Below, piece by piece: positions 4,404 through 41,477 of a stretch of DNA of 64,000 nucleotides. The notes beneath the pieces are model-generated. The model was not told the origin of the DNA. It saw nothing but the letters and a program-made list of their open reading frames with translations, and ran no database searches. Source of the stretch: Planctomycetota bacterium. Its GTDB lineage: Bacteria > Planctomycetota > PUPC01 > JACPCR01. Location of the stretch: NCBI GenBank assembly GCA_016179685.1, contig JACPCR010000052.1, forward strand, positions 1 to 64,000, read 5' to 3'. The position numbers and the translations under genes were made by a program. Numbering within the stretch: the stretch's first letter is position 1; every line of letters starts with the position of its first letter.

Positions 4404-4426
4404 AGGCGTCATGGAAACACGAGGCG

Positions 4427-4567
4427 CTTGGGGCGTCAAACCTGAAAAAACTTTTTGAGTTTGAGTTGCACCTTAAAGGCTTCCCTTTCCGCGTCCGGGT
4501 TGGGCCGGCGAAGCCGGGCCAGCCCTGGCTTCGAAATCCGCGTAGCCCGGATGGCGCAGCGGATTTC
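4427..4567 (-). repeat. composite hairpin leader, copy I
   Basis: minus strand: GAAATCCGCTGCGCC..GGGCTACGCGGATTTC, then GGCCCGGCTTCGCCGGCC, then GTGCAACTCAAACTCAAAAAGTTTTTTCAGGTTTGACGCCCC; lies just upstream of the 4403 start. Confidence 0.75.
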
Positions 4568-4631
4568 ATGAGGTTCGCTTCCGTGGGGAACCGAAACCGC
4601 TATAATACAAGTAATTCTGGGGAAATTCGAT

Positions 4632-11926: not shown

Positions 11927-12102
11927 TTCGGGATTTTCTACCCCAAGTGCCGTTGAAAAGCAAAGACTGACGCTGCCCCATCCGGACGCCGCGTCCAGTG
12001 GATTCCGAGCGCTTCTTGAATATCTCCGCATTCCCCAGCGTCTAACGCGGAAATTCGAATGCAGGACCCAGGGAGGCCTCTGCGTAAGAACAAGTATCTA
12101 TT

Positions 12103-12340
12103 GAAATCCGCTGCGCCCTTCGGGCTCGCGGATTTTAGAGGCAGGGTCGGCCCGGCTTCGCCGGCCCAACCCTGGCGGGTGAGCAGAAGTCAGTAACTCA
12201 AATTTCCAACTTCTGAGTTTATCTGAGATCATCTCGATTGGACGCACGTCGAGATCGGGATCGGGATCGAGAAAAATCTTATATGATTAAAGCGCAACTG
12301 AAACTTGAAAAGTCTTTTCAAGTTTGGCGCCCCAAACGCC
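12103..12340 (+). repeat. composite hairpin leader, copy II
   Basis: GAAATCCGCTGCGCCCTTCGGGCTCGCGGATTTT, GGCCCGGCTTCGCCGGCC, and perfect palindrome AACTTGAAAAG-T-CTTTTCAAGTT at 12302-12324. Confidence 0.75.
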
Positions 12341-13695
12341 TATGTCCAAGACATGTGGTTTTTCTTCTACTGGCGGGTCTAATGGACGCTGGGGACGCCG
12401 GGTCAGAGGCTATCCACGCGCAGGAAGCGCCCAGAGCGGAATTCGAATACACCCTGGAGGGGCCATACACCCACCGAAATCTGGGCCTCTTCCTTGTCCA
12501 TGGCGCCGATCGGTCTCTCGGAAAGAAATTTCTGACCTTGCAGGAGGCTCTCAAGGGCCAGCAAGCGGTGGTCCATGAGACGGAAAATGTCAATGAGCTT
12601 GCCGTGGAGAATGTGAACGAGGAGTCGTTCGTTTACATCCAGGCCGGGGACGTCGTCACGGGAGGAAAGCAAGACAGAGTGCTTGCGCTGGACCTCCTCT
12701 TGGGGCCCCGATCCGGCAAGGTGTCCATCGCCTCTTTTTGCGTGGAACGTGGTCGATGGAGTCGCCGCGGAACTGAGTACGACTCGATTTTCGGCGGCTC
12801 CGACCACCAGCTTCCAACCAAGGGTCTCAAGTTGGCAATGAAATCGCAGCAGTCCCAGTCGCAGGTGTGGTCGGAAGTGGCTATGAGCAATAACGCGATC
12901 TCGCTCAATGCAGCCTCGGTCCTCACTGAATCAACGCGGGAACTTCGAGATTCGGACGTAGAATCCGGGAAGGCATCGACCTTTTCCGCGACGGCCGGTG
13001 AGTATAGCGTGCCGCCAGCGCTTGCGGGTACGGGGAGTGAATCCTCCGCGCGCCAGCAGCCTGAGGAGGATGGGGGATCCGCAATTTCAAATGGAGGAGG
13101 TGCCGTCATGGCCTCGGATGATTCGCAGGCCATGACGGGCGCGGTCACCGTGATTGGCATCACTGACCATGTAGGGACAGTCACGGGTCTGGCTATCGTC
13201 AGCGTGGATGGGATTGCTGAAACGGTTTCTGGAGGTCTTACGATTGCGGCAGATTCAAGCCTCAACGCGACCCTCGATAACCCGGAGGTCCAGAAGGCTG
13301 CCCAGGAATACCTCGAACCGCTTCTGGCCATCACCGAAGGAAAGGAAGACGTGATCGGCTTCGTGTATGCCGTCAACGGGAAGATCAGCTCGGCCGAGGT
13401 GTATGGGTCGAGTGATCTTTTCAAGAGGATGTGGCCGAAGCTGCTCCAGGCAAGCGCGATGGAGGCTATCGCTGACTTTCGGAAGGAACAGGCCTTCGAA
13501 GAAGTCACAAGCGACGCGGTGCAGGCCTTCCTGGTGAAAGCGAAGGCAGGGAAACTCTCGGAGAAAGAAATTCAGAAGGGTGTGAAGCTCTTGACCTGCG
13601 AGACGGATGAAATCCTATTCTCCGAGACTCGTGAGGTGAGCGATGGCGATGCGTGGATTCACCGGAGCTATCTGAGTCAATCGTCCCGGGAATAG
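12283..13695 (+). CDS. ARPP-1-like domain protein with low-complexity insert
   Basis: KKFLTLQEALKGQQAVVHETENVNELAVENVNEESFVYIQAGDVVTGGKQDRVLALDLLLGPRSGKVSIASFCVERGRW resembles the ARPP-1 family; start codon uncertain because the ORF begins in the repeat. Confidence 0.65.
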   Translation: MIKAQLKLEKSFQVWRPKRLCPRHVVFLLLAGLMDAGDAGSEAIHAQEAPRAEFEYTLEGPYTHRNLGLFLVHGADRSLGKKFLTLQEALKGQQAVVHETENVNELAVENVNEESFVYIQAGDVVTGGKQDRVLALDLLLGPRSGKVSIASFCVERGRWSRRGTEYDSIFGGSDHQLPTKGLKLAMKSQQSQSQVWSEVAMSNNAISLNAASVLTESTRELRDSDVESGKASTFSATAGEYSVPPALAGTGSESSARQQPEEDGGSAISNGGGAVMASDDSQAMTGAVTVIGITDHVGTVTGLAIVSVDGIAETVSGGLTIAADSSLNATLDNPEVQKAAQEYLEPLLAITEGKEDVIGFVYAVNGKISSAEVYGSSDLFKRMWPKLLQASAMEAIADFRKEQAFEEVTSDAVQAFLVKAKAGKLSEKEIQKGVKLLTCETDEILFSETREVSDGDAWIHRSYLSQSSRE

Positions 13696-15594: not shown

Positions 15595-15674
15595 CGAAGC
15601 GTCCGGTGGAAAGAGGAGACGTGTTCCGGGCCTTGTGGCCCCGACGATTCGTTGTTTCGACACAAGAATCTATT

Positions 15675-15814
15675 GAAATCCGCTCCGCCCTTCGGGCTAC
15701 GCGGATTTCAGATTTGCCGTCCATGGCAAAAAGCAGAACCTTCAAGACCGCGGAAGGATAACTCGCGAACTGGAAAAAATCTAAAACATTTTCGAGTTTG
15801 GCGTCGGAAGCGCC
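15675..15814 (+). repeat. composite hairpin leader, copy III (diverged)
   Basis: ATCTATTGAAATCCGCTCCGCCCTTCGGGCTACGCGGATTTC, then AACTGGAAAAAATCTAAAACATTTTCGAGTTTGGCG. Confidence 0.65.
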
Positions 15815-16008
15815 TTGTTCACCTGGCGAGGAATGGCAAACGCGGCGTGGTTGCTCTTCCCCGCAGGCGCAGCGGCGTGGCTGCTCCGCCTGGAAGCGAA
15901 ATAGGGGACAGGACGATTGCGACGGCCACGAGAAGGCACTAACATGGCGATTCTATTCTTTGGAATTCGCGCCGCGCCGCATCCGAACGGATGGGTCAGG
16001 AGGTTGCC

Positions 16009-37558: not shown

Positions 37559-37634
37559 CACGGAGACCGCCGCCGCAACGGCCTGCAGCAGGCCCGGGCA
37601 GGAGCGACGCCCGGGGAGGGGCAGGGCATGAGTC

Positions 37635-37774
37635 GCTTGGCGCGCCAAACTTGAAGAACTTTTTAAGTTGGAGTTGCACTTTAAAGGCTTCCGTTTCCCC
37701 GCCGGAATGGGGCCGGCGCGGCCGGGCAAACCCTGGCTCTGAAATCCGCGAGCCCGAAGGGCGCAGCGGATTTC
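37635..37774 (-). repeat. composite hairpin leader, copy IV
   Basis: minus strand: GAAATCCGCTGCGCCCTTCGGGCTCGCGGATTTC, then a GCCGCGCCGGC hairpin, then TGCAACTCCAACTTAAAAAGTTCTTCAAGTTTGGCGCGCCAAGCG. Confidence 0.8.
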
Positions 37775-37775
37775 A

Positions 37776-38858
37776 TTAGGGCTGCATGTCGATCGGGAGC
37801 ATCTCACGGTCCACATTGAGTATGAGAAGGGCCATCGGGGTGGCATAGGTCTTGCCCATGACCTTGCTGTTTTCCGCGTTGCCCGGCGGAATCGGAAAAC
37901 TCCCGTCCGGGTTCTGATGTTCCTTGAGGGTGTGAAAAATCCGGCGAAAGTGCCGGTCGAAGGCCTGAAGGTCACCGGACAGGCGAGCGTGGTGCAGAAG
38001 ACCGCGCGCCCCGAAAAAGTTGGTCTGATAGAAGATGGGGCCATACCAGAGGGGCGGATGGCTCTTCAACCATTCGACCGCAAGTTTTCTCTTGGATTCG
38101 GAAAGGTCGTAAAGGGCCAGGACGCCGAGGCCAGCGCTCGTGACGCTGATCACGGGCAGGCCGGCGGCGTCGTAGGAGAAGCCTCCCATGTCGTCCTTGT
38201 CGAACTGGACGGCGCCCTCTGAAGGGTCCTTCTGACTGGCGGCAACGAAGGCCGTGGCCCGCGTGAGGGACCGCTTCGGCACCTTGCGGCCCCCATACTG
38301 CATGGCCCGAAAAAAGAGAAGATGCCAGGCGGTGACCATCCGATCGTTCACCTTGACCTTCGGATTCGGAGTCCAGCCCCCGAAGTACTCCGCACCGACC
38401 GCCTGGTTCTGAATCTTCAAGCTATACTGGAGCGCCCGATCGGCCTGCCGGGCGATGGAACGGTTATCGGCAGAGTCCACTCCCATGCCGAGAAGGCAGG
38501 CCGCCAGGAGTCCCCCCACGGCGTGGCTTTCGTGGGGAAAATCGGTGTCACCCATGAAGCCGTCCTCCCCGCTGTGGGAGAAAAGCCAGCGGTAGGCGCG
38601 GACGAGGCCGGGCCCGTGCTGCGGGTCGCTCGGCGTGATGCCGGCGGAAAGCTGGGCAAGGACAGCCAGCGCACTCTGAAGGTGGGTCTGGGTCTGCCCG
38701 AAGGAGCCGTCCGCATTCTGATTGGACCAGAGAAAATCCAGTCCGGACTGGATGACCCGTTCCCGGGCCTTGAGGAATTCCTTTGAACGGACCTCGAAGT
38801 CCGCAGACTGGCTGAATCCCGTTGAGAGGACCACCAGCAGCGACAGGCTTAGGCGCAT
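37776..38858 (-). CDS. prenyltransferase/squalene-oxidase-repeat (alpha/alpha toroid) secreted protein
   Basis: SGLDFLWSNQNADGSFGQTQTHLQSALAVLAQL, HTLKEHQNPDGSFPI; signal peptide MRLSLSLLVVLSTGFSQS. Confidence 0.8.
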   Translation of the reverse strand: MRLSLSLLVVLSTGFSQSADFEVRSKEFLKARERVIQSGLDFLWSNQNADGSFGQTQTHLQSALAVLAQLSAGITPSDPQHGPGLVRAYRWLFSHSGEDGFMGDTDFPHESHAVGGLLAACLLGMGVDSADNRSIARQADRALQYSLKIQNQAVGAEYFGGWTPNPKVKVNDRMVTAWHLLFFRAMQYGGRKVPKRSLTRATAFVAASQKDPSEGAVQFDKDDMGGFSYDAAGLPVISVTSAGLGVLALYDLSESKRKLAVEWLKSHPPLWYGPIFYQTNFFGARGLLHHARLSGDLQAFDRHFRRIFHTLKEHQNPDGSFPIPPGNAENSKVMGKTYATPMALLILNVDREMLPIDMQP

Positions 38859-38900
38859 GGGGCGCCCAACTTGAAAAAACGTTTTAAGCTCGAGTTGCAG
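38852..38900 (-). repeat. composite hairpin leader, partial copy V (AT-rich hairpin only)
   Basis: minus strand: CTGCAACTCGAGCTTAAAACGTTTTTTCAAGTTGGGCGCCCCATGCGCC; overlaps the start codon of 37776..38858. Confidence 0.75.
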
Positions 38901-38950
38901 TTGAGGTCTTTGATAAGTCATTGCACGAGAATTACTTATTTATGGAGGCC

Positions 38951-39064
38951 GTAACTTCTCAATAAGTTCGGGTAATTTAAGACAGTCATATACATAAGTT
39001 GCTGTAAAACAAATGGTTAGAGAAAATGGACAAGCAACTTGCTCGAACTTATTGAGAAGTTACT
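38951..39064. mobile_element. 114-bp MITE-like element with flanking 7-bp direct repeats
   Basis: 19-bp perfect TIRs TAACTTCTCAATAAGTTCG (38952) / CGAACTTATTGAGAAGTTA (39044), AT-rich core, flanked by GGAGGCC at 38944 and 39065. Confidence 0.75.
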
Positions 39065-39419
39065 GGAGGCCTTCCCTCAACCCCTCCCTGATAAAATCCA
39101 GCGCAACGGCAGATTCTTTCATGGCTTCCCTCCCAATGAACAAAAAGATCAAGTCTTTCGGATATCTCAGACTCGCCAGAACACCGATAGCCGCGAGTAC
39201 GTTCGCCTTGGCCCTATTATCCGGCACCTTCGAAGCCGCTTCAACCGCAAGGGTCAGCGGTTCTTCACGGTTCCTGCCATGGGTCAGGCACACCAGGGGA
39301 ATCAGGCCCGGACCGCCTTTTTCGAGTATCTCCGTCGCCTCCCGCTCCGAGCGGCGGACCTCTGGACATTCGAATGGTGATGGGGCGTTCCGGCGAACAC
39401 TAAGGACAAAAGAACTCAA
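39060..39419 (-). pseudogene. fragment resembling Rpn-family nuclease/putative transposase, terminated by the MITE-like element
   Basis: DNRAKANVLAAIGVLASLRYPKDLIFLFIGREAMKESAVALDFIREG; its TAA stop is the first TAA of the MITE TIR; no convincing start. Confidence 0.4.
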
Positions 39420-40720: not shown

Positions 40721-41256
40721 TTCGTTCAGTTTCCTCTTCTCCTCCTCCACAAGCCCAACTCAACCTTCTGACAGCAAGCGTTTAGGAAATTCCTCCTTCC
40801 TCCCAGACCTTCTTCGCCTGGTCGATCCGGCCATCCTGGGCCAGCGCCCGGAAGACCGCCGGCGCTTCTCGATCTCTCCATGGTGCGCGGTTTCCCCCTT
40901 CTCTCGCCAGGCCTTCGCCTCGTCCTTCGCCTTGAATTCGTTTTCCGCACCCTCCGCCCGCTTCTGCGTGATCTCGAACCGGTCGACGATCTCTCGAAAG
41001 TCGTCGGGATGCTCTGCGGCATACTCCTCTGCCGCTCGGAACATGCCGGCAATCGCCTCCACCTTATCCGTTGACAACGGTGTGGGGGTGGCGGCAGTCT
41101 CCCGACTGCCGGGTTTTTGCGTGGCGGCAGTCTGCCGGGGGATTTCAACAAAAACTTCTGCTGACCCGCAAAGTCCTCGTGGCGGACCGGGGCTTCATCG
41201 TTCCATGGTAGTATGTGGCCCCTTATTCTCATAGAATCACAATACTAAGAATTAGA

Positions 41257-41441
41257 CGCTTGTGGCCCCAAACTTGAAAAAACTTTTTAGGCTCGAGTTG
41301 CACAAGAATATTGTTGGAGTTCTCAAGCTTTTTTCAAGCAAAGCATTTCACGGTGGTGTTCGGCCTGCTGACCCGATATAACATGGATTCAGGGACAAGG
41401 GACAAATGGAATCCGCGAGCCCGAAGGGTGCAACGGATTTC
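41257..41441 (-). repeat. composite hairpin leader, copy VI
   Basis: minus strand: GAAATCCGTTGCACCCTTCGGGCTCGCGGATTCC, then GTGCAACTCGAGCCTAAAAAGTTTTTTCAAGTTTGGGGCC. Confidence 0.7.
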
Positions 41442-41477
41442 AGAGGAGTTTCGTTTGGACTTGCGACGAAGGCGCTT

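Follow-up and report, generated by a model that had tools for sequence, protein, structure and literature searches.

The hairpin-bearing sequence at positions 37,635 to 37,774 of the window (the whole 64,000-nucleotide stretch of DNA analysed here, bases 1-64000 of contig 127) is one copy of a repeat that most probably represents a species-specific, non-autonomous mobile element of the REP/MITE/BOX-like kind, with asymmetric ends and moved in trans. Across the 7.23 Mb source genome (137 contigs, about 90% complete), scans allowing up to three mismatches recovered 119 left hairpins (63 on the plus strand and 56 on the minus strand) and 81 right ends, and reversed-pattern controls for both returned 0 matches genome-wide. 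Neither end was found by a mismatch scan in 58 relatives, one of them from the same family and seven from the same class; searches with the exact patterns found nothing in 84,980 other species' genomes, and 312 kb of the sole same-family relative show no such repeats. Judged from these genome comparisons, the element is a species-specific or lineage-restricted dispersed repeat. Its anatomy, gene placement and flanks were analysed in 2.0 Mb of the genome, where dispersed repeats taken together make up about 18% of the intergenic sequence.

The original prediction had described six copies in the window, and the sequence it described is present at all six places. The hairpin pattern matches three times in the window as against 0 times in 100 shuffles, and the right-end pattern matches six times where 0.30 matches are expected. 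The copies, with the parts of the named copy given separately, are as follows.

37740..37775, minus strand: the named copy's left end (h1), a TGAAATCCGCTGCGCCCTTCGGGCTCGCGGATTTCA hairpin lying immediately behind the TAA stop codon of the co-oriented upstream gene
37701..37737, minus strand: the named copy's second hairpin module (h2), rich in GC and degraded in part
37629..37681, minus strand: the named copy's right end (RE), consisting of the AT palindrome, GGCGCGCCAAGCGAC and the junction TCA
4420..4568, minus strand: full copy, short form
12102..12343, plus strand: full copy, long form, with flanks TAT and TAT
15674..15817, plus strand: variant copy with h1 and a degenerate RE, the middle being different
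38849..38901, minus strand: right-end-only copy with an A-to-T change, CCAAGCGCC to CCATGCGCC
41252..41442, minus strand: diverged copy with h1 and RE, its middle unlike both consensus forms

The ordered architecture of h1, h2 and AT palindrome was recovered as predicted, but its boundaries, its length classes and the make-up of two copies required correction. The sequence at 38852-38900, previously taken as a partial copy, is a right end alone, and the copy at 15675-15814 joins an h1 and a degenerate right end, as in the family, to an unrelated middle. Because full copies fall into two length classes of about 150 and 235 bp, the copy at 12103-12340 is a long form. In the right-end-only copy (38849-38860, minus strand) the changed base yields the probable ATG (38858) of a toroid-type gene, where it opens the signal-peptide-like sequence MRLSLSLLVVLSTGFSQSA; the repeat may thus have provided this gene with its start codon.

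Both length classes, with consensus lengths of 150 bp (short) and 235 bp (long), begin with the left hairpin h1, TGAAATCCGC...GCGGATTTCA, continue with the h2 hairpin, GCCAGGGTTGGCCCGGC..GCCGGCCCAACCCTGGC, and close with CAAACTTAAAAAGTTTTTTCAAGTTTG-RCGCCCCAAGCGCC-TAA, the long class carrying an additional segment of ~85 bp in the middle. The right end combines the AT palindrome with GRCGCCCCAAGCGCC, and the palindrome is followed by an 18-nt tail that ends in AAGCGCCTAA. The element runs from TGAAATCC to AAGCGCC(TAA), its two ends being TGAAATCC and GCGCCTAA; on the right, information content reaches background 2-3 bases past GCGCC, where the consensus reads TAA. An alignment of full copies shows no inverted-repeat relation between the two termini, and the inverted repeats that the element does carry are internal. 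In the 2.0 Mb, 51 pieces are full-length, 71 comprise the left part only and 59 the right part only; most of the left-only pieces break off either once the first hairpin is complete (36-38 nt) or at around 90 nt, which indicates that the parts behave as modules. Retrotransposition, hinted at by right-anchored truncated copies, was considered and rejected, left-anchored truncated copies being at least as common. No plausible case of a longer version enclosing a gene was found.

Placement relative to genes bears directly on the original prediction, which had read the sequence as a mobile 5' leader or operator, or a structured cis-regulatory RNA, in front of genes. The strong predicted folding of the element fits this reading, as does the fact that five of the six window copies aim at a co-oriented downstream gene. 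Among the neighbouring genes, Pfam confirms the MR/MLE, ARPP-1 and ADH assignments, while of the two proteins called toroids one has sub-threshold Prenyltrans/SQHop matches only and the other has no Pfam match; these window neighbours are unrelated enzymes, which speaks against the leader reading. Genes were called with our own hexamer model (1408 genes, 83% coding), whose stops are more reliable than its starts. In the 2.0 Mb, 149 of the 154 copies that could be classified (97%) are intergenic, though only about 17% of the DNA is. The predicted orientation toward a co-oriented downstream gene, seen in 5/6 window copies, falls to 76/149 in this sample; tandem gaps hold 37 co-oriented and 47 anti-oriented copies (binomial p = 0.33), the share of copies found in each of the three gap classes (tandem, divergent and convergent) is that expected from gap length (p = 0.64), and gene starts within 100 bp are equally common at the right end (31) and the left end (32). 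The regional sample was partly picked for containing right ends, but seven contigs (1.25 Mb) tiled independently of that, with 12 co-oriented, 18 anti-oriented, 17 divergent and 5 convergent copies, likewise show no hint of a bias toward co-orientation. A co-oriented stop codon lies flush with the left junction in 17 cases and a start in 0, and an opposing stop lies flush with the right junction in 15 cases, as against 1 otherwise. Copy position is thus non-random only in avoiding genes and in often abutting stop codons. The 5/6 orientation in the window looks like a small-sample effect, a tempting local misreading that the larger genome sample, free of orientation bias, corrects. The original prediction had itself named random orientation and position relative to genes, together with stems free of compensatory changes, as evidence against a leader, and random orientation with gene starts equal at both ends is what the 2.0 Mb show. 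A leader or operator role is therefore refuted family-wide and very improbable as an account of the element, although single copies could have been co-opted. With more than 100 intergenic copies directed toward and away from genes equally, the element looks like a genomic parasite-like repeat rather than a gene-control leader.

Changes in the stems and a search of Rfam are similarly unfavourable to a structured RNA. The consensus has a much stronger predicted fold than its shuffled versions (z = -5.8). Over 81-99 distinct copies, however, compensatory changes are no more numerous than in shuffles for h1 (5 versus 3.1, maximum 9) and RE (10 versus 12.9); h2 shows a slight excess (16 versus 6.5, maximum 13) that comes mainly from one pair swapped between subfamilies. 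An Rfam search with the element gave no match, so the claim of a structured RNA was not borne out: apart from the small, subfamily-like excess in h2, the stems decay mostly without compensation. The hairpins accordingly look like a property that the element had when it was spreading rather than one of a maintained RNA. On the reverse strand of the long form (for example at window positions 12170-12262) there is a recurrent reading, MDKNSFDPDPDVRSxEMFRDELRSWK. That the long form is a vestige of a short protein gene encoding this sequence is extremely improbable: the frame is open in many copies and a CGGGAT unit varies by 6-bp steps, but substitutions show almost no codon-position bias (dN/dS about 0.78), many copies contain stops, and neither the relatives nor NCBIfam yielded a match.

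The left flank before TGAAATCC has the preference AA(G/A)..YCTA(A/T), and this motif (AAG..YCTAWT) is similar to the terminus at the right end of the element itself, AAGCGCCTAA. Tail-to-head junctions occur, six h1 copies lying four bases behind another right end. In 14 of 47 full copies the 3-mer to the left of the element equals the 3-mer to its right, compared with 6.4 after reshuffling of the flanks (p about 0.001), in an exploratory test for which several offsets and alignments were tried and in which the third base alone is informative, the first two being mostly TA. The match is consistent with a 3-bp TAN target duplication, and because it rests on one informative base after several alignments had been tried, we hold this evidence to be suggestive. 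Among insertions into other repeats no clean empty site was found; one suggestive case, at C82:38157, has the joined flank GCTAAGGCG. An integron attC-like reading, in which GCCTAAC resembles an inverse core site, was rejected when inspection of the right flanks by eye revealed no matching GTTAGGC partner. The many dispersed copies, the tail-to-head junctions, the target preference and the target-duplication-like flank match together support the term mobile used in the original prediction.

We infer from these features a model in which an enzyme acting in trans would recognise the folded ends and insert the element after an AAG..YCTA(A/T) site, making or copying about 3 bp (TAN), with the left end forming a hairpin that abuts the insertion point. 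New copies could insert behind old ones, since the right terminus resembles the target site, and would thereby give rise to tail-to-head junctions. Insertions that break genes would be removed by selection, which would explain why the survivors lie between genes; many of these would sit flush with stops because the site itself, or the TGA at the start of the element or the CTA at its end (TAG on the other strand), supplies a stop codon. Once established, copies would decay without selection on structure.

Identification of the mobilising enzyme was pursued across the genome, in which eight genes match the Y1 transposase family (PF01797). No h1 or RE flanks any of the eight in this about 90% complete assembly. 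The Y1 genes at L151-L154, L156 and L158 are flanked by palindromes of their own, for example GCGGCCGACACAGCGGCCGCGCTACCCC beside L158, suggesting that ordinary REP-RAYT-like systems coexist in this genome with the h1/RE element. A narrower version of our preferred explanation, that the element is a REP/BIME-type repeat moved on single-stranded DNA by a RAYT or an IS200-like Y1 transposase, is a serious possibility but on balance doubtful. It would account for a hairpin at each end without terminal inverted repeats and for a hairpin that occurs alone as a unit, and the host does have Y1 genes. In IS200/IS605 elements the left target resembles the right cleavage terminus, just as the left-flank site resembles the right terminus here. 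Against this version, the palindromes at the Y1 genes are different ones, a GTAG/CGTC tag is present at neither end, and the target-duplication-like match is not expected of IS200/IS605.

A second narrower version, a MITE of a DDE-type insertion sequence making a 3-bp TAN duplication, is quite unlikely. The flank match is consistent with such a duplication, the copies are intergenic and there is no coding selection; the termini, however, are not mutual inverted repeats, and the genome has a single DDE_Tnp_1 gene and lacks DDE_3 genes. Neither the DDE_Tnp_1 gene nor the two IS110 genes bear the element's ends. No long, highly similar repeated insertion sequence was recognised in the 2.0 Mb, and neither an autonomous copy nor a transposase bearing the element's ends was found in the about 90% complete assembly. 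The mobilising enzyme may have been lost, may be encoded in sequence that the assembly lacks or may have gone unrecognised. At least one contig of the assembly, C45, has a copy of the element at its beginning.

The genome also contains other repeat families. A second modular family, CTCCCACTGGGACAAGTCTGG...GGAGAAGTGACACCCTAAGACTCTAA, with 43 matches reported in the genome (for example G000:C82:38374-38473), has its left end GGCGGGCGAAGCCCGC after CTTAA and ends in AAGACTCTAA, similar to the element's right terminus. In several places h1 lies directly behind the end of this second family, and the two are often joined. At about 38945-39065 of the window an inverted pair, AACTTCTCAATAAGTTCG and CGAACTTATTGAGAAGTT, about 60 bp apart, belongs to another dispersed family with 71 copies (up to three mismatches, 2.0 Mb), and a palindrome family, GAGTTCGGAAGTGC..GCACTTCCGAACTC, gives 135 matches counted over both strands in the 2.0 Mb. 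A right terminus common to unrelated families offers a handle for finding the mobilising enzyme. A bolder reading is a distinct class of non-autonomous element whose two hairpin ends are unlike each other and which lacks terminal inverted repeats, with a short TAN duplication, a target site that mimics the right terminus and a recombinase outside the known Y1, DDE and IS110 groups, with the terminus and perhaps the enzyme common to at least two unrelated families; we regard such a class as rather unlikely.

By description the element can be set beside several known repeat systems. Like BOX of Streptococcus pneumoniae (PMC3049150), it is modular, variable in length, intergenic and present in many copies, its variable length arising from combinable modules. 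BOX repeats supply the stop codon at gene 3' ends in 36 cases (PMC3049150), and the junctions of our element likewise often abut stop codons. BOX, however, has terminal inverted repeats resembling those of ISSpn2 (PMC3049150), whereas the element lacks terminal inverted repeats in common with an insertion sequence and has no known partner. YPAL/RU-2 of Yersinia is a 168-bp repeat, not AT-rich, that has internal inverted repeats and duplicates its target on insertion (PMC2229807). By description the element resembles it in not being AT-rich and in having internal rather than terminal inverted repeats; YPAL duplications are reported to span 3-26 bp at or near dyad targets (PMC2229807), as against a match of about 3 bp at AAG..YCTAW here, and the element differs in that its ends are two different hairpins. 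With REP, BIME and REPIN sequences it has in common intergenic palindromes, more than 100 copies and mosaic arrangements (PMC2817692, PMC3733652, PMC3116915), and recognition through the hairpins is plausible, but it shows no bias to convergent or unidirectional gaps. REP itself is defined as a palindrome of 20-40 bp that carries a GTAG or CGTC tag at one of its ends (PMC3733652). The element has the high copy number and intergenic position of REP, yet its ends are TGAAATCC and GCGCC(TAA) with the flank CTA(A/T) and no such tag, and two different hairpin ends take the place of a palindrome that also flanks a RAYT. MITEs are defined by terminal inverted repeats, which the element lacks, and by a host insertion sequence that shares their ends, of which no example was found in the about 90% complete assembly; for target-site duplication, a further MITE feature, the exploratory 3-mer match (14 of 47 against 6.4) is suggestive. 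Because the element shows the defining features neither of REP (tag and RAYT) nor of MITEs (terminal inverted repeats and partner), we file the element under the broad kind alone, that of small dispersed bacterial repeats.
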